Source: a virus
DNA length: 20,004 nucleotides
Strand: one strand, 5' to 3'
Virus record (IMG/VR): IMGVR_UViG_3300021343_000011
Location: 1 to 20,004 of that record
A model generated the notes under the pieces. It was not told where the DNA came from. It did no database searches and saw nothing but the letters and a program-made list of their open reading frames with translations. Position numbers and translations under genes: made by a program. This document shows, in pieces, positions 2,026 to 16,385 of the stretch; the stretch's first letter is position 1, and each line of letters begins with the position of its first letter.

Positions 2026-3957
2026 TTAAGCCAGGGCCAATTCATCAGCCAGCAAGAAACCGTTTACCGGTTGATTGGTGTGGATTTCCATCTTCTCCAC
2101 CGTCGTGCCCTTGTTGTGGGTTGCATTGCTGATTTGCTGCATCAATCCGCCTGTAGGCACAGCGTTCAACCTGTCGCCACTGATCCGGCCTGCCACCTGG
2201 TTCATGGCGTCCCGCTCCTGCTCCACTTTTTGGTTGAGGTTTAAGCTGTTGTCGCCACCAAACAGCCCGGCAATGGACTGAATCAACCCATTGTCGGCCA
2301 CGGTCTTGAGGAACCCGGCAAACAAGTTGGTGGCCTGCCACACCTTTTGAATCAGCCAGCCTATGGCGCTGGCCACAGCCCCTATTACCGTGCCTATGGC
2401 CTGAAACAGGGTCAGCACGTTGTTAAACACCGTGGTGACACCAAACAGGTCAAACAGGAGCTTCCAGCCGTCAATGATCATACCCAGCCCATCCCACAGA
2501 AAAGACAAGGAGGCGGTTAACCCCTGCACCGCCAGGCGCAGGAGCTGGAATACCACGGACTTTGCCAGGGCCGCCTGCACTTTGTCCCAATAGATGACTA
2601 AGCCCGCGAGAGCGGCTCCCAGGAGCAATACGCCCCCCACCACCCAGGTAATGGGGTTGGCCCAGAGTGCGGCATTGAACAGCAGCAGGGCTGTGCGCCC
2701 TACCAGCAGGATAGAGTGCCACCCGGCCATGGCCATACCTGCCACCCCAGTGGCCAGCGAAAAGGCGCTGACGGCGGCCACAAGACCAAATACCACCAGG
2801 GTGCCTATACCAATCACGCGGGTCAGGTTGGGAAATAGCTCTGTCCAGCGCACAATGGCCTCGCCACCGCTGATCAAGCTGTTAGCCAGGGGCACCAGCA
2901 CTGGCTGCATGACTCGGCCAAACACCGTCTTCACGGCCTCTCCCACAGCCCCCAGGCGCTCCCAGGGGTCAACCATGGCATCAGCCATCTCCATGGCCTT
3001 ATCCATGCCGTTGAGGCTGCCCAGGGCGCTGATATTGCCTGCCAGGCCCTCAACGTTCTGGGATAGCAGCTTGATCAGGCCCACGGCCTCTTTGGTACCA
3101 AACGCTTTTCTGAGTGCGTCAGATTCCGCCACGGTGTCGATTTCGCCGTATTTGCTCTGGATCTTCTGGAGGATATCCACCATGGGCAGTAGCTTGCCCT
3201 GGCTATCGGTGAACCTCAGCCCCAGTTCCGCCTGGGCCTTGCCCACGCCCGCCAGGAAGGATTTGTACTTGGTGCCTGCCTCTGACCCACTCATGGTGGC
3301 CTGCAGCGTGCCCAGGATCGCCATTTGCTCATTCATGGCAACACCGTGGCTCTGGGCCTCAGCGCCCAGATTGGCGAAGCTGGCGGCCATCTCGCTACCC
3401 GTGGTCTTGAACATCTGCACCGCGCTCGCGGTTTGACCGGCCAGCATCTGCACCCACTCGGCCTTACCCATCTGATTAGCGGTGTTCTGGAAAATACCGT
3501 ACATGGTGCCCATGTAGTCGGTAATGGTGCCGGTATCGGATTTGGTGGCCTTGGCCAGCACACCACTGGCCTGGGTGAACTTGGACAGCTCATTGCCCGT
3601 TAAACCGGCAATGGCACTTTGGATATCGTAGGAGGAGCGCACAAAGTCGGTGGCGCTCTCACCGTAGCGGGTGGAAAAAGACAAGGCAGTCTTCTCCAGT
3701 TGTTTGAGGGCGCTATCCGCTACCCCCAGGCTTTTGACTTCACCCAAAGCCCGATCCATCTCAATGGCAGGTGATAAAATGGAAGACAATGCATAGCCCG
3801 TGGAGAACAACCCCGCAGCGCCCACACCTACCTGGGCAAAACCCTGGGTGGCACGCCTGTTTAACTGGTCGATTTGAGCCGCTATTTTTCCCGCAGGGCC
3901 GCTGACCTTGTCAATCAGCGACACACTAAAGAGCAATTTTTCTAAACGAGAACTCAT
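2026..3957 (-). CDS. T: Tail tape measure protein
   Basis: A 643-aa tape measure protein that sets tail length and is threaded through the tube. The N-terminal third matches the TP901-type core: MDRALGEVKSLGV, LSFSTRYGESATDFVRSSYD, ASGVLAKATKSDTGTITDYM and SHGVAMNEQMAILGTL. The middle (about 370-470) and parts of the C-terminal third are strongly hydrophobic with several potential membrane-spanning segments (for example VIGIGTLVVFGLVAAVSAFS), as expected for a protein that may help genome passage at the inner membrane. It is shorter than P2 gpT (about 815 aa), which suggests a shorter tail. It follows the chaperone pair E/E' but with a lipoprotein gene inserted between them. The ATG at 3957 is preceded by a modest GGAAA. 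Confidence 0.95.
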   Translation of the reverse strand: MSSRLEKLLFSVSLIDKVSGPAGKIAAQIDQLNRRATQGFAQVGVGAAGLFSTGYALSSILSPAIEMDRALGEVKSLGVADSALKQLEKTALSFSTRYGESATDFVRSSYDIQSAIAGLTGNELSKFTQASGVLAKATKSDTGTITDYMGTMYGIFQNTANQMGKAEWVQMLAGQTASAVQMFKTTGSEMAASFANLGAEAQSHGVAMNEQMAILGTLQATMSGSEAGTKYKSFLAGVGKAQAELGLRFTDSQGKLLPMVDILQKIQSKYGEIDTVAESDALRKAFGTKEAVGLIKLLSQNVEGLAGNISALGSLNGMDKAMEMADAMVDPWERLGAVGEAVKTVFGRVMQPVLVPLANSLISGGEAIVRWTELFPNLTRVIGIGTLVVFGLVAAVSAFSLATGVAGMAMAGWHSILLVGRTALLLFNAALWANPITWVVGGVLLLGAALAGLVIYWDKVQAALAKSVVFQLLRLAVQGLTASLSFLWDGLGMIIDGWKLLFDLFGVTTVFNNVLTLFQAIGTVIGAVASAIGWLIQKVWQATNLFAGFLKTVADNGLIQSIAGLFGGDNSLNLNQKVEQERDAMNQVAGRISGDRLNAVPTGGLMQQISNATHNKGTTVEKMEIHTNQPVNGFLLADELALA

Positions 3958-4454: not shown

Positions 4455-4652
4455 TCACTTACCGCTAAAAGCACGGCCAATACCATTAGCAATCGCGGCT
4501 TCCAGGTTCTGGCACTCCCGCTTTTCCAGGTACAGCGCCAGCCCCATGGTTTCTTCGGTTACGGGCTGACCTGGTAGATACCTGGCCACCAGGGCGCGCA
4601 GCTGGTCGTAGCCGTTGTTTTCGATCTGCTCCGCTATGCGCTGCGCTTTTTT
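4455..4652 (-). CDS. E': E' extension of the tail assembly chaperone, reached by -1 frameshift
   Basis: After the slip at 4646-4652, the -1 frame stays open for 63 codons and ends at the TGA at 4457-4455. It encodes AQRIAEQIENNGYDQLRALV, then LPGQPVTEETMGLALYLEKR and a C-terminal ANGIGRAFSGK. No convincing independent start precedes it, so it is expressed as a 154-aa fusion: 91 residues of E plus these 63. In P2 the E+E' fusion, like lambda G-T, loads the tape measure during tail assembly. The coherent composition and the precise heptamer support this strongly, although the frame has no start codon of its own. Confidence 0.85.
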   Translation of the reverse strand, partial: KKAQRIAEQIENNGYDQLRALVARYLPGQPVTEETMGLALYLEKRECQNLEAAIANGIGRAFSGK

Positions 4653-4918
4653 GCAGTGATCGCCAGATCAGGGGTATATTCCTGCAGAACAGCGCCAACC
4701 AGATCCATTTCAATACCAGGCGCGGATTTAATCAGCTCCAGCAACGCTTTCTCATCGTCTTTTTGAACTGTTCCCACCAAAAAGTTATGGCTAGGAGCCA
4801 CCTTGCTGTTGGGCAATAAGCTATTGACGTACTTGTTGTACGATTCACGAGTGACTTCAAAACAATAGGTCTTCTCGCCAACAGTAACGTCTATGATTTG
4901 TGCGGCAGATTTAGTCAT
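4634..4918 (-). CDS. E: Tail assembly chaperone E
   Basis: A 94-aa protein in the position of P2 gpE, the short form of the tail assembly chaperone that coats the tape measure before tube polymerisation. It opens with MTKSAAQIIDVTVGEKTYCF and ends ITAKKRSA just after a slippery run, where part of the ribosomes should shift to the E' frame. A good ribosome site (AAAGGAG) precedes the ATG at 4918, and the gene overlaps the small holin's stop by eight bases. Sequence similarity to named families is weak by eye; the call rests on size, position before the tape measure and the frameshift architecture. Confidence 0.8.
   Translation of the reverse strand: MTKSAAQIIDVTVGEKTYCFEVTRESYNKYVNSLLPNSKVAPSHNFLVGTVQKDDEKALLELIKSAPGIEMDLVGAVLQEYTPDLAITAKKRSA
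4646..4652 (-). promoter_or_regulatory. Programmed -1 ribosomal frameshift site (A AAA AAG)
   Basis: Reading leftward, the heptamer A-AAA-AAG sits in the right phase (gcA AAA AAG) four codons before the E stop. A AAA AAG is among the most efficient -1 slippery heptamers known in E. coli. Slipping joins E to the open E' frame. P2 itself uses a T-run heptamer at the equivalent place. Downstream stimulatory structure was not resolved by eye. Confidence 0.88.
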
Positions 4919-9615: not shown

Positions 9616-10335
9616 TTATTGATTCAGTTTCGCTTTTAATACTTTTATCTTGGTTTTTACCCCAGACTTATCGGGATTGACTTCTTCGCACTTCTCAAAC
9701 CAGGCTAAGGCCTGCTCTTCCTGGTTATCGCACTCCGCATACAAACCCAACAGTTTGTACAACTTGTTCAACACAATAGGCTGGTTAACGATCCAGAAAT
9801 CAGCCATCACCAATTTGGCAACATCATCAAGATAGGGGCTGGCACTAGCTTTCGCTTTATACTGCCGCTCTGACCAGGCTGTGATTTCCTCCACCACATA
9901 AGTGGGCAAGTCGCGCTTAAAGTTGCCTGGCATGTGCTGCTGTTGAGCTATGGCAAAACCTGCCAACTCCACGGCGGTTTCAATGTCTTCAGCATCGATC
10001 AGCCAAATAACCACGCGCACCAACAATTCATTGGGGTAGTCTGCGCCGCTGTCGCGGTAGGCTTGGACGATGGGTAGATACTTAGGCAGCAGTTCGTTTT
10101 TCTTCAGCGCCACTTTATCGGCCACGTCTTCCAGGTCGCTCAAGCGCTCAAGGTCGTTTTGCAGTTCGGTTAAGGCTACTTCCTGTTGGTGCTTGGATTT
10201 AGCGCTGCTAACAGGGGAACTGGATTGCACCGCCGTTGCGGTCTGTGGTGCTGTCTCCTGTTCAACCTCTCCCGCTTGTTTTGTCGCGTGGGCCTCCAGG
10301 CACTTTTGCTTATGACGCAGGGCAATACTTGTCAT
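9616..10335 (-). CDS. M: Small terminase subunit M
   Basis: A 239-aa protein of the P2 gpM family, the small terminase subunit with the endonuclease function in P2. It begins with a basic MTSIALRHKQKCLEAHATKQ, as the family does, followed by a Ser/Gln-rich linker, then an all-helical core with NELLVRVVIWLIDAEDIETA, IAQQQHMPGNFKRDLPTYVV and a repeat-like C terminus with LLGLYAECDNQEEQALAWFE. P2 gpM is about 247 aa. The ATG at 10335 has AAGGA seven bases upstream. Its transcript comes through or after a strong terminator that separates it from N. Confidence 0.92.
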   Translation of the reverse strand: MTSIALRHKQKCLEAHATKQAGEVEQETAPQTATAVQSSSPVSSAKSKHQQEVALTELQNDLERLSDLEDVADKVALKKNELLPKYLPIVQAYRDSGADYPNELLVRVVIWLIDAEDIETAVELAGFAIAQQQHMPGNFKRDLPTYVVEEITAWSERQYKAKASASPYLDDVAKLVMADFWIVNQPIVLNKLYKLLGLYAECDNQEEQALAWFEKCEEVNPDKSGVKTKIKVLKAKLNQ

Positions 10336-11538: not shown

Positions 11539-12369
11539 TTAAATAACTTCTACTTTCTCAGCATCACCGCCAGCCGGATCGGTTTCGGTGCCGGGCACTT
11601 CTTCTTCAGACAGCTTGTTGAACTTTTCCTGCAACTCATTGAACTGGGTTTGCAGCTGGCTAAACGCTTCCTGGCTTACACCGGTTTCCGGTGTCTCTTC
11701 ATCACCACCCTGGGGTTCTTCCTTAGCCGCCAATTTTTCTTCCAGGCTGGTGAATTTTTCCAGCAGTGCGCTGCTGGCCTGAGTCTGAGTGTTAAAGGCG
11801 TCCAGCAGTTGTTGAAACTGTTCTTTATCCATGGTTTTGGAATCCTGTTTATCGTCGGTGGATTTGGTGAGTTTTTGCATGAATCGCGACAAAGGCCCCT
11901 GGTTGTTTTCCAGCTCCAGGTGCTCTAGCGCTACAGGGGTAGAAAAGTAGTTCTCTGGCAGCTGGGCGCGATTGCTGAATTGCAACTCACTGGTACCCAG
12001 GCTGGCCGGTGAATCGGTCACCGCCAGGCCTGCCAGGTAGGCTTTACCGGTTTTGGCAAAATCCGGTTGAATTTCAATGGAGGTAAACAGCTTTTGGCCG
12101 TTATTGTTCAGGTAGATTAACTCATCACTGGGGGCAATTTTGGCGAACAAACACATGCGGCCTTTGCTGTCTTCTTCCGCTTTGACTTCTATCACCTTGC
12201 CCAGGTTGCCAAAGTAGCGGATATGCTCATACCAGATATTCGCGGTGTACTCTTCCTGGTCGTAGGATTCCGCCATATCAGTGATATCCGTGGCGGAAAT
12301 TTCGCGCCCATCAATAGTAGGCCCACTGGTTGCCACTTTCACAAAATCGGTAAAGAGTTTTCGCGCCAC
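11539..12369 (-). CDS. O: Capsid scaffold and maturation protease O
   Basis: A 276-aa protein of the P2 gpO family: an N-terminal serine protease that matures the capsid and a C-terminal helical scaffold. Likely catalytic residues by comparison with P2 gpO are D20 (TIDGR), H49 (YEHIRYFGN) and S97 (LFTSIEI); the [16 protein letters not shown] segment follows as in the family. Residues about 170-265 are charged, Gln/Glu-rich and coiled-coil-like, fitting the scaffold part. P2 gpO is about 284 aa. Translation should start at GTG 12369, with AAGGG eight bases upstream. It is the first gene of the leftward late unit, next to the divergent control region. Confidence 0.93.
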
Positions 12370-12479
12370 TGGGTTGCCCTTCTGTTGGTTTAATCGGTTC
12401 GCTTGAATGCCGGTTGTGCTTGCTGCACTTCAATGGTTGCCACAGTAAGGCTAAGCACCGGGTGAAACAACGCGTTTAA

Positions 12480-12522
12480 TTCCTGCCAATTCCTGTTTTG
12501 CGAAAATAGGAATTTCCAGGAA
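12480..12522. promoter_or_regulatory. 43-bp dyad with doubled half-sites between the divergent late units
   Basis: A symmetrical element is centred at 12501. The inner arms (12488-12499 and 12503-12514) form a 27-bp palindrome with 11 of 12 pairs around GCG. Each arm also carries a second copy of the half-site one helical turn further out: TTCCTG at 12480 and 12490, AGGAA at 12508 and 12518. Over 20 bases per arm, 17 positions are complementary. It lies between O (start 12369) and P (start 12567). This looks like a binding site for a dimer of dimers, most simply the late activator encoded at 15439; the binding protein is inferred. Confidence 0.65.
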
Positions 12523-12536
12523 CGCCGCTGCACTTT

Positions 12537-12558
12537 TTTACGGCTAAAACCCCGTAAA
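12537..12558 (+). repeat. Inverted repeat in the leader of terminase gene P
   Basis: TTTACGG (12537-12543) and CCGTAAA (12552-12558) are perfectly complementary around an 8-base loop. The right arm ends eight bases before the P start codon. A possible -10 box TAAAAC (12545-12550) lies in the loop. It may be a leader hairpin or an operator; no T-run follows, so it is not a terminator. Confidence 0.45.
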
Positions 12559-12566
12559 CTGCCCAC

Positions 12567-14312
12567 ATGGCTAAATACTCAGACGAAATAAAAGTTGCCG
12601 CGAAAATGATGTGGCTGCGCAAATGCTCTGCCAAAGAGATTGCGCAAGAACTGAACCTGAATAGTGCACGGGTGGTTTACCAGTGGGCGGAAAAAGGCCA
12701 CTGGGATGACATGTTGCAACACGAAACCGTGGAGCAGGCGACCGCCCGCCGCATGATTGTGCTGGTTGAAAAGCCCAACAAAACGGATGATGACTATAAG
12801 GAGATAGACCGGCTCAGTAACCTGCTGGATAAACTGGCAGGCATTGATGCCAAGAAAGCCAGAGCAGCCAAAGAGAAAGCCAGGGCCGCCAAGGAAGAAA
12901 ATGGCGAAGGTGGCACCAGAAAACGCAAGCGGAAAAAGAAAAACGATGTCAGCGAGATAACGCCGGAACAGCTGGAGACCATCCGTAAAGAGCTGTTTTT
13001 TGATTACCAGCACCGCTGGCACGACAACAAAGACCAGCGCACCCGGTTTATTTTGAAGTCCCGCCAGATTGGCGCTACCTACTACTTTGCCTGGGAGGCC
13101 TTCGAGGACGCTATTATTAGTGGCGACAACCAGGTATTCCTGTCGGCCAGCCGCAGCCAGGCGGAAGTGTTCAAGGCCTATATCATCAAGTTTGCCCGTG
13201 AATACTTTGAACTGGAATTGAAAGGCGCGGAGTTCATCGAACTCAGCAACAGCGCAGAATTGCGTTTTGTCTCCACCAATGGTCGCACCGCTCAGGGCTA
13301 CCACGGGCACCTCTACATTGATGAAGTCTTTTGGATACCGGACTTCGAAAAGCTCAACAAGCTGGCCAGTGCCATGGCATCACAAAAGAAATGGCGCAAA
13401 ACCTATTTCTCTACGCCATCGGTGAAAAGCCACGGCGCTTACCCCATGTGGAGCGGAGAGAAATACAACGAACGGCTGAAAAACAAGGTTGAGTTTAATC
13501 TATCCCACGATACCCTGGTTAACGGTCATGTAGGGCCGGATAAGATTTGGCGCAACGTGGTAACCATCAAAGACGCCGAAACCCAGGGCTGTGACCTCTT
13601 TGATATCGAAAGCCTACAGCTGGAATACACAGACGCAGAGTTTAATAACCTGTTTATGTGTGCGTTTATGGAGGCCGGGCAATCAGTCTTTAAACTGGAT
13701 GACCTGTTAAATTGTGCAGTGGATTCCAATGTAGTGTGGGTGGACTTTAAAGCCCGCCAGAAACGCCCCTTTGGCAACCGCCCGGTATGGATCGGTTACG
13801 ACCCTGCCCGCACCGGGGATACCTCCAGCGTGGTGGTGGTGGCTCCCCCGCTCAAGGAAGGTGAGAAATTCCGTATTCTGGAAAAACACAAACTGAAAGG
13901 CGCATTTGCTTACCAGGCCAACCGCATCAAGGAATTGACTGAAAAGTACAACGTGCAATTTATCGGCATTGACTGCACCGGCCCAGGGCTGGGCGTTTTT
14001 GAGTTAGTGCAGGGGTTTTTCCCCAGGGCAACACCGATCCATTACGGCTTGGAAACCAAGACCAGCCTGGTACTTAAAGCCGTCGACGTGGTGGAGTCTG
14101 GCCGCATTGAGTGGGACGCAGAGCATACCGATATCCCCCAGGCATTTTTGCAAGTGCAACAGGTGGCCACCGCTGGCGACAAAATCACCTATGTTGCAGA
14201 CCGCAACAGCAAAACTGGCCACGCAGACGTGGCTTGGTCGATTATGCACGCGCTCAGCAACGAACCCTTAAACCGTACCCAGCGAAAAGCCACCCTGGCT
14301 TTTGCGAGTTAA
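12567..14312 (+). CDS. P: Large terminase subunit P (packaging ATPase/nuclease)
   Basis: A 581-aa large terminase of the P2 gpP family that pumps DNA into the prohead. Residues 1-50 form an HTH (CSAKEIAQELNLNSARVVYQ); 94-125 are very Lys/Arg/Ala-rich. The ATPase shows a Walker A-like SRQIGATYYF (165-174) and Walker B HLYIDEVFW (D252, E253), with FSTPS (281-285) as coupling motif. The nuclease domain has IGYDPA (D412), GIDCTGPG (D469) and GHADVAWSIMHAL (D554), the RNase H-type acidic triad. P2 gpP is about 590 aa. No clear ribosome site precedes the ATG at 12567, and a possible promoter lies very close, so a very short leader is likely. Confidence 0.96.
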   Translation: MAKYSDEIKVAAKMMWLRKCSAKEIAQELNLNSARVVYQWAEKGHWDDMLQHETVEQATARRMIVLVEKPNKTDDDYKEIDRLSNLLDKLAGIDAKKARAAKEKARAAKEENGEGGTRKRKRKKKNDVSEITPEQLETIRKELFFDYQHRWHDNKDQRTRFILKSRQIGATYYFAWEAFEDAIISGDNQVFLSASRSQAEVFKAYIIKFAREYFELELKGAEFIELSNSAELRFVSTNGRTAQGYHGHLYIDEVFWIPDFEKLNKLASAMASQKKWRKTYFSTPSVKSHGAYPMWSGEKYNERLKNKVEFNLSHDTLVNGHVGPDKIWRNVVTIKDAETQGCDLFDIESLQLEYTDAEFNNLFMCAFMEAGQSVFKLDDLLNCAVDSNVVWVDFKARQKRPFGNRPVWIGYDPARTGDTSSVVVVAPPLKEGEKFRILEKHKLKGAFAYQANRIKELTEKYNVQFIGIDCTGPGLGVFELVQGFFPRATPIHYGLETKTSLVLKAVDVVESGRIEWDAEHTDIPQAFLQVQQVATAGDKITYVADRNSKTGHADVAWSIMHALSNEPLNRTQRKATLAFAS

Positions 14313-14327
14313 GAGAACCCGGCACCA

Positions 14328-15380
14328 ATGAGAAAAGGCGCATTAAAAAACAAGCCACATAACTTTACCCGCCGCAGTGTGAGCCACACGGGGGACAAAC
14401 AAGGCAACCCTCTGGCCTTCAGCTTTGGCGATCCAGAACCGGCCCTGTCTGGCAATATCGCGGATTACTTGGGACTGTTTATCAACCCTAACGGTGACTA
14501 CTACACGCCCCCGGTGAGCCTAGGAGGGCTAGCCAAAATCCTACGGGCCAATGCTCACCACAACACCATACCGTTTTTTAAGCGCAACATGCTCCGCAAA
14601 TGGTACGTTGAAAATCCGGTGTTATCGGCTACCGACTTGGAAAATGCCGGGTTTGACTATCTGGTGTTTGGCAACTGTTACCTCCAGGCTATATTCAACC
14701 GCTTTGGCCAGATACTGCGCTACAAGCATATCCCGGCCCTCAATATGCGCCGCATGAAGGAGCTAGACCGCTATTGCCAGTTGCGCAATAGTAAAGAGCC
14801 ACTGGTGTTTCAACCGGGCGAAATCGTCCACCTGAAAGAGTATGACGTTAACCAGCAAATCTACGGCATGCCGCAATACTTAGGCGGTGTCCAATCCGTG
14901 CTGTTGAATGAGGCCGCCACGCTCTTTCGCCGCCGATACTACAACAACGGTGCGCATATGGGCTTTGTGTTCTATACCGCTGACGCCAAGCTAGACGATG
15001 CAGACGAACAAGCCCTTAAGGAGCAAATCGCCAACAGCAAGGGCGTGGGCAACTTCCGCAGTCTGTTTTTGAACATACCTGGTGGGCGTCCCGACTCCGT
15101 TAAGATTATCCCCGTGGGGGATATCGCCACCAAAGACGAATTCGAGCGGGTAAAAAACTTAAGCCGTAACGATGTGCTCAGTATGTGGCGCATCCAGCCA
15201 GCCTTAGCGGGCATTATGCCGGAGAACACCGGGGGCTTTGGAGATATCGAAAAAATCAGCCGGGTCTATTACGAAAACGAAGTGGAGCCCATGCAGCATG
15301 TTTTTTTGAAGCTGAATGAACAACTCCCAAAGGCCAAACGGATTAAGTTTGATAGACCAGAAATTACAAATGAATCCTAA
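14328..15380 (+). CDS. Q: Portal protein Q
   Basis: A 350-aa portal of the P2 gpQ/PBSX portal family, the dodecameric ring through which DNA is packaged and to which the tail joins. Typical stretches are YYTPPVSLGGLAKILRANAH, FDYLVFGNCYLQAIFNRFG, VHLKEYDVNQQIYGMPQYLG with RRRYYNNGAHMGFVFY, and the terminal LSMWRIQPALAGIMPENTGG with YYENEVEPMQ. P2 gpQ is about 344 aa. The ATG at 14328 lies 15 bases after the P stop, with a poor upstream AAGAGAA; translation probably couples to P. P and Q share orientation and presumably one transcript. Confidence 0.95.
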   Translation: MRKGALKNKPHNFTRRSVSHTGDKQGNPLAFSFGDPEPALSGNIADYLGLFINPNGDYYTPPVSLGGLAKILRANAHHNTIPFFKRNMLRKWYVENPVLSATDLENAGFDYLVFGNCYLQAIFNRFGQILRYKHIPALNMRRMKELDRYCQLRNSKEPLVFQPGEIVHLKEYDVNQQIYGMPQYLGGVQSVLLNEAATLFRRRYYNNGAHMGFVFYTADAKLDDADEQALKEQIANSKGVGNFRSLFLNIPGGRPDSVKIIPVGDIATKDEFERVKNLSRNDVLSMWRIQPALAGIMPENTGGFGDIEKISRVYYENEVEPMQHVFLKLNEQLPKAKRIKFDRPEITNES

Positions 15381-15391
15381 TAATTACAAAT
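15362..15391 (+). repeat. Tandem direct repeat AATTACAAAT at the end of Q
   Basis: AATTACAAAT occurs at 15362-15371 and 15382-15391, a 20-base period (about two helical turns), each followed by an AA two bases further on. The first copy is inside the last Q codons, the second overlaps the possible -35 box of the ogr promoter. This spacing suits a regulator binding one face of the helix. It could also be chance in an AT-rich stretch. Confidence 0.4.
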
Positions 15392-15412
15392 TAAATTGCA
15401 CCATGCTAAAAT
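15384..15412 (+). promoter_or_regulatory. Possible sigma-70 promoter for the ogr-like gene
   Basis: TTACAA (15384-15389) and TAAAAT (15407-15412) are 17 bases apart, which places a start near 15419, about 20 bases before the ogr ATG. The -10 box is 5 of 6, the -35 box only 3 of 6. If real, the activator would be made independently of the P-Q transcript. The AT-rich context weakens the call. Confidence 0.35.
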
Positions 15413-15438
15413 GCCCCTTCATGACCAGGGGGGAGTCT

Positions 15439-15693
15439 ATGCGCGTCGAGTGCCCGGAATGCAATCAAAGAGCGGTGATCAATAAACGTAACCGCCTATC
15501 CAATGTGGTCACCGACTTGTATTGTAGCTGTAGTGATGCGGAGTGCGGACATACCTTTGTGACCACGCTGGCATTTAAACACACCTTGTCACCGTCCAGA
15601 AAAGGGGCCAAGGATATGATGTTAGAACTCTTGCGCAGTCTCCCAGCCAACGAGCAGCAGCAACTGCTTGAGCAAGCAAGGCTTTCTGTCTAA
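15439..15693 (+). CDS. ogr: Ogr/Delta-type zinc-finger late transcription activator
   Basis: An 84-aa protein starting MRVECPECNQRAVINKRNRL with C5-X2-C8-X22-C31-X4-C36, the exact cysteine spacing of P2 Ogr and P4 Delta, which bind one zinc and activate P2-type late promoters through the RNA polymerase alpha subunit. The HTFVTTLAF segment after the last Cys matches the conserved ATFIT-like part of Ogr. The frame is open from 15316, but the ATG at 15439 follows a strong GGGGGGAG and gives the normal family N terminus (P2 Ogr is 72 aa). It lies behind the portal gene and before a strong terminator. The targets would be the late promoters near 12501; this is inference. Confidence 0.9.
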   Translation: MRVECPECNQRAVINKRNRLSNVVTDLYCSCSDAECGHTFVTTLAFKHTLSPSRKGAKDMMLELLRSLPANEQQQLLEQARLSV

Positions 15694-15710: not shown

Positions 15711-15735
15711 CAGGCACCTAACGGTGCCTGTGTTT
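15711..15735 (+). terminator. Rho-independent terminator after ogr
   Basis: CAGGCACC (15711-15718), a TAAC loop and GGTGCCTG (15723-15730) form a perfect 8-bp stem followed by TGTTTT. It ends the P-Q-ogr unit and protects the convergent gene whose stop begins at 15735. Confidence 0.88.
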
Positions 15736-16169: not shown

Positions 16170-16385
16170 GTGACCGTGACTTCGTTTAAAAAGGAATTTG
16201 GCCTCAATGTTGCCCGCTACCGCAAGGAGGCAGGGCTTACCCAGGAGCAGCTTGCAGAGCGTTGCGGCGTAGTCCTTCAAACTATAGGCCATATAGAACG
16301 AGGGAAACATGGCCCCCGGTTTGACTTGTTGGAAAAGCTTTGTGAGGTGCTGGAAGTGCACCCTAAACAGCTGTTTGATTTTTAG
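16170..16385 (+). CDS. XRE-family (Cro/C1-type) DNA-binding regulator
   Basis: A 71-aa protein consisting almost entirely of a Cro/C1-type helix-turn-helix: LNVARYRKEAGLTQEQLAER (12-31) and CGVVLQTIGHIERGKHGPRF, with the LEKLCEVLEVHPKQLFDF end typical of XRE proteins. It has no dimerisation or cleavage domain, so it is a single-domain repressor or Cro-like protein. No ATG is available: the frame opens at GTG 16170, and GTG 16176, preceded by AGGTG, is an alternative. A perfect palindrome lies about 65 bases upstream. As the only clear regulator of this region, it probably controls the divergent 16019 gene and itself; that role is inference. Confidence 0.88.
   Translation: MTVTSFKKEFGLNVARYRKEAGLTQEQLAERCGVVLQTIGHIERGKHGPRFDLLEKLCEVLEVHPKQLFDF

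Follow-up and report, generated by a model that had tools for sequence, protein, structure and literature searches.

A dyad with doubled half-sites between the divergent P and O operons of a P2-like phage, a probable Ogr-class operator of both late promoters

An activator site lying between the P and O genes and common to both late operons is already known from phages P2 and 186. In P2, late activation works via the C-terminal domain of the RNA polymerase alpha subunit. The P2 activator site is experimentally annotated at 3057-3087 with starts at 3016 and 3127; these annotated starts lie 55-56 bp from the centre of the site, and the -10-like hexamers, counted on the sequence, lie 43-44 bp from it. 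The B-protein site of 186 is experimentally annotated at 3798-3817. According to the literature, the motifs reported for P2, Smp131, phiRSA1 and phiRSY1 are either TGT-N12-ACA or TGTTGT-N13-ACAACA, the latter being found at the late promoters of phiRSA1 and phiRSY1 in four regions per genome (PMC5694545). The cysteine motif CX2CX22CX4C of the Ogr/Delta proteins has been described (PMC3931495), and in K139 and Smhb1 the ogr gene is reported to lie between the portal and early genes (PMC8537503).

The DNA analysed here is a 20,004-base viral contig fragment (hereafter the window) carrying a P2-like late region. The leftward operon runs from 12369 to 86 and consists of O, N, M, L, R, S, a sheath-like gene, a tube-like gene (HP1 Orf24), the tape measure gene, baseplate gene J, and I; the rightward operon runs from 12567 to 15693 and consists of P, Q and ogr. 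The first leftward gene, O (scaffold/protease, 11539-12369, minus strand), was assigned by PF05929 and other P2 families. The first rightward gene, P (terminase ATPase subunit, 12567-14312, plus strand), matched PF03237, PF17289 and PF06056, and Q (portal protein, 14328-15380, plus strand) matched PF04860. A terminator-like stem on the plus strand at 15711-15730 closes P-Q-ogr.

Between the two operons (O-N-M-… leftward, P-Q-ogr rightward) lies a dyad at 12480-12522, TTCCTGCCAATTCCTGTTTT-gcg-AAAATAGGAATTTCCAGGAA, in which 17 of 20 positions are complementary around a 3-nt spacer centred at 12501. The first-pass annotation had reported this palindrome, and it was confirmed by a recount and by 200 Markov-1 random windows, none of which contained a 17/20 palindrome with a spacer of 0-10. 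It was the only such palindrome in the window, and the only full match to the site across it. The inner half-sites are TTCCTG at 12490-12495 (plus strand) and TAGGAA at 12507-12512 (TTCCTA on the minus strand). The outer half-sites are TTCCTG at 12480-12485 (plus strand) and CAGGAA at 12517-12522 (TTCCTG on the minus strand), so that the half-site recurs at an exact 10-base outward step in both arms (12480/12490 and 12507/12517). This recurrence, also noted earlier, held in the window and in relatives. When outer and inner hexamers of 17 non-redundant loci were compared at offsets 6 to 29, the mean match was 4.4 of 6 at offset 10 and 0.7-2.3 at all others; at least 5 of 6 positions matched at offset 10 in 18 of 34 arms, compared with no more than one arm at any other offset. 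Offset 10 was the only one at which the hexamers resembled each other across relatives, which means that the outer half-sites did not arise by accident in a single sequence. In many relatives the outer half-sites were weak or diverged, and binding by four protomers may therefore not be general.

The locus resembles P2 PO/PP in its P-O location, in a putative activator site common to divergent late operons, in an Ogr-family activator and in a weak -35. However, the P2 half-site is TGT-N12-ACA, whereas the present type is TTCCTR-N11-YAGGAA with an extra outer pair. No TGT-N12-ACA was found in the P-O gap (12370-12566), and its 23 occurrences in the whole window were at chance level (23.8 expected), in agreement with the earlier remark that the motif is not of the P2 TGTTGT type. 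The centre in P2 is at -55/-56 with the -10 at 43-44 bp, while here the -10 is 54 bp away. In P2, annotated activator sites mark three late-promoter loci (PO/PP, PV and PF), and ogr follows D; in the present type there is apparently one site per phage, and ogr follows Q, behind the portal gene as in K139 and Smhb1. A strict P2-type Ogr late promoter, with a TGT-N12-ACA dyad centred at about -55, was rejected because both the half-site and the distance (as judged from putative starts) fail that definition. The site belongs to a sister class that appears to work in the same way. The pV/p12 region of 186 likewise has a zinc-finger activator site common to divergent late operons, but with a different half-site, GTTGTGTGGGCGGTTGTCCA. 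The palindromic Ogr-type motifs upstream of the phiRSA1 and phiRSY1 late operons are comparable, differing in half-site and number.

Relatives were fetched by protein similarity of their terminase genes, regardless of the dyad, yielding 14 bacterial and 11 viral contigs. The dyad was present at the same P-O place in most of them, including prophages of Microbulbifer, Hahella, Methylophaga and Pseudoalteromonas; such conservation upstream of P and O was one of the conditions on which the first-pass annotation had made its proposal depend. The common core was TTCCTA-N11-TAGGAA, with TTTCTA in Cellvibrio-like phages. Microbulbifer prophages had, like the window, an extra outer pair 10 bp outside. 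The doubled pattern was found in 8 of 48 Microbulbifer genomes searched and the reversed control pattern in 0; all 8 doubled sites, when fetched as loci, adjoined P and O. When viral contigs were scanned for the complete dyad exactly as it stands in the window, nothing matched, the reason being a lack of conservation in the inner T4/A4 flanks. In a nucleotide similarity search of the P-O intergenic region against phage records, matches reached only the P coding part.

The most telling feature was the placement of the -10 boxes. Among 20 distinct strong-site loci, fetched by P (terminase) protein similarity alone and partly related (17 non-redundant), TANNNT began exactly 54 bp from the centre in 20/20 on the right and 20/20 on the left, compared with rates of 0.9% and 0.2% at other offsets. 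There were two exceptions: a further copy (L019) had its right-hand TANNNT at 53, and a locus with a weak dyad (L011) was without the 54-bp pattern. In the window, the putative -10 of the rightward P promoter is TAAACT (12555-12560, plus strand), the first base of which is 54 bp from the centre. The putative -10 of the leftward O promoter is TACTGT (12442-12447, minus strand), with its first base, 12447, at the exact mirror position, and it is preceded at 17 bp by a -35-like TTGTTT (12465-12470, minus strand), of which the TTG is kept at this offset in relatives. The conserved boxes thus replace the TAAAAC box put forward earlier as the rightward -10 and supply the leftward -10 that had been missed. 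With the usual 7 nt from -10 to start, both transcripts would start about 66 bp from the centre, because the conserved -10 is 54 bp away on each side. The centre would then be at about -66, and the predicted starts would be near 12567 for P and near 12435 for O. Judged by these predicted starts, the spacing is one helical turn longer than the -55 of P2. The earlier reading, in which the centre of an Ogr-class operator is at -55 and P starts at about 12556, had the P2 distance of -55/-56 from annotated starts in its favor, but no conserved -10 was found about 43 bp from the centre in relatives, practically all of which had it at 54, and a start at 12556 would fall inside the conserved -10 box. 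We regard that geometry as very improbable.

The predicted P start coincides with the A of the P ATG (12567, plus strand), 7 nt past the -10 and 66 bp from the centre, and the start codons of relatives point to the same position. Of 101 distinct loci, 66 had an in-frame ATG at a distance of 66 or 67 bp from the centre. This ATG falls at the predicted start, which suggests a leaderless terminase mRNA in many of these phages; in the window, transcription of P probably starts at the gene's own ATG. The annotation of the P2 V gene has the same coincidence, with start site and CDS both at 10308.

These predicted starts also bear on whether the dyad could act as a hairpin in RNA or DNA, for example as a bidirectional terminator. 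As RNA, the dyad of the window folds well (-18.9 kcal/mol, z -4.5). However, the site is upstream of both predicted starts, hence absent from either late transcript, and in relatives the 11-bp spacer shows no self-complementarity, with 27-53% pairing at positions 1-5, indicating that only protein-type half-sites are kept. The spacer and the location outside both predicted transcripts argue for a protein-binding site, and a hairpin function is extremely unlikely. An intrinsic terminator was rejected: no terminator-like site (GC-rich stem plus T run) was found at the dyad, which lies between 5' ends and not 3' ends.

The promoter was also sought without gene information, by scanning 2.9 million IMG/VR viral contigs with the pattern ANNNTA-N42-TTCCTA-N11-TAGGAA-N42-TANNNT. 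The pattern matched 95 contigs, and in all of them the match fell in the P-O region, with P and/or O at the expected distance; the -10 agreement within these pattern-selected contigs is by construction and was not counted as evidence of spacing. When both gaps were lengthened by one base (43), 0 viral contigs matched, and the contrast with the 95 at N42 shows conservation of the distance itself. A one-sided scan added a further clade with CAAACT at the mirror position; among the matches listed (at least 120) there were only P/O sites, and no satellites or other genes with the same operator. The promoter occurred once each in 8 viral records and 4 complete host genomes (2.5-6.6 Mb), apart from two chance-like one-mismatch matches, which suggests that each phage apparently has one such site. 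The locus therefore has what is expected of a broad Ogr-class bidirectional late operator: a single activator-type dyad separates the divergent P and O operons, and both the dyad and its spacing are conserved in relatives.

A phage-encoded Ogr/Delta protein, the third feature of this broad class, was also present. The ogr gene downstream of Q (15439-15693, plus strand) encodes an 84-aa zinc-finger late activator of the Ogr/Delta family (PF04606, 2.5e-15; alignment with P2 Ogr) in which the CX2CX22CX4C cysteines are intact. All 22 records tested that carry the promoter also had an Ogr/Delta gene, in line with the earlier claim that the phage encodes an activator of this class. Where found downstream, ogr was on the P strand in 86/86 loci, typically about 3 kb from the site and behind Q. 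The gene is preceded by an extended-TG promoter-like sequence, ATTACA-N18-TAAAAT (15383-15412, plus strand), with a similar -10 in many relatives, so that initial Ogr could be made independently of the late promoter. A PDB sequence search found no solved relative of Ogr. Because the half-site differs from the P2 TGT-N12-ACA and the identity to P2 Ogr in the alignment is only 21%, we infer rather than observe that Ogr recognizes the dyad. One record of a doubled-operator phage (IMGVR_UViG_2905755338_000001, 44 kb) contained two Ogr/Delta genes.

Binding of the dyad by another regulator, repressing the late promoters, was considered as well; candidates would be a host factor or a repressor of the phage itself, for instance the HTH protein encoded at 16170-16385. 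An HTH_3 protein is indeed encoded nearby in the window, and palindromes are typical of HTH repressor sites. However, a single site per phage, separated from the two downstream -10 boxes by a constant distance that keeps helical phase, fits activation better; no second copy of the dyad was found near the immunity-type genes of the window, and P2 and 186 use the same position for Ogr and B. We therefore consider a repressor site improbable. The dyad is very likely the shared activator site of a symmetric bidirectional late promoter, bound by the phage Ogr/Delta protein, and would most likely let one phage activator switch on both virus-building gene sets together. As to the original proposal of an Ogr-class operator between divergent late operons, the kind of operator and its place were upheld by conservation and the presence of ogr, whereas the -55 geometry was not.

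In the mechanism that we propose from these sequence features, the Ogr/Delta protein (15439-15693) would bind as a dimer on the inner pair TTCCTG-N11-TAGGAA, and a second pair of protomers would occupy the outer half-sites, where present, one helical turn further out on the same helix face. From this site near -66, a class-I-like position, Ogr would recruit the host sigma-70 RNA polymerase in both directions and place it at the two -10 boxes, each 54 bp from the centre. The leftward head/tail operon (from O onwards) and the rightward P-Q-ogr operon would thereby be activated together. Read-through from P would amplify Ogr and activation would feed forward, because ogr ends the rightward operon yet is also preceded by a promoter-like sequence of its own.

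Dyads in the P-O gap were also found in 919TP, Vibrio PE001 and HP1, where at least one arm repeats its half-site with 10-bp phasing, but the half-sites differ from that of the window: TTCGGA in Vibrio and GGATAT in HP1. The phasing is seen in HP1 as GGATATCGTAGGATAT…ATATCCGAAGATATCC and in the right arm of Vibrio PE001 as TCCGAATTCATCCGAA. Independent lineages thus share the 10-bp phasing with other half-sites. Among these three, the exact 54-bp spacing was confirmed only in Vibrio PE001, and neither HP1 nor F108 had a symmetric 54-bp -10 pair around a dyad. In HP1 (NC_001697.1), Q is followed by an ogr homologue that lacks annotation; it lies downstream of the P-O dyad, at about 3.0-3.3 kb, and is divided between two reading frames in the sequence as deposited. 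No such dyad was found in the P-O regions of Burkholderia, Mannheimia, SEN8, Yersinia 06.16-2 and Klebsiella Kp4848 phages. Neither a TTCCTA-type site nor a symmetric 54-bp -10 pair was found in the P-O gap of Cronobacter phage ESSI-2, and the operator of this phage may be of another type. ESSI-2 has an Ogr relative behind Q.

The half-site and spacing described here are new with respect to the P-O sites of P2 and 186. In the literature searched, outside of which most of the classic P2, P4 and K139 papers lie, neither the TTCCTA site nor the doubling of half-sites nor the 54-bp geometry was found described; such dyads may have been mentioned earlier in papers on the K139 genome or on P4 Delta and 186 B binding. 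The signature is precise and genome-searchable, and identifies late promoters in a very large P2-like prophage group missed by the P2 consensus; it also describes an activator site that would act both ways at one fixed distance, a helical turn off the textbook one. More tentatively, as possible rather than probable, a large branch of P2-like phages may run its whole late programme from one symmetric promoter, with four Ogr protomers bound to half-sites phased at 10 bp around a centre at -66 from both promoters, a leaderless terminase mRNA, ogr ending one operon, and half-sites that have changed repeatedly at fixed geometry. If so, the fixed geometry and changing half-sites would form a readable Ogr-to-DNA recognition series; the natural half-sites TTCCTA, TTTCTA, TTCGGA, GGATAT and TGTTGT offer a way to learn how Ogr reads DNA.

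Elsewhere in the window, overlapping frames at 4486-4918 on the minus strand resemble the P2 E/E' pair, and a slippery heptamer, A_AAA_AAG, is located at about 4652-4646 in the right phase for a -1 frameshift.
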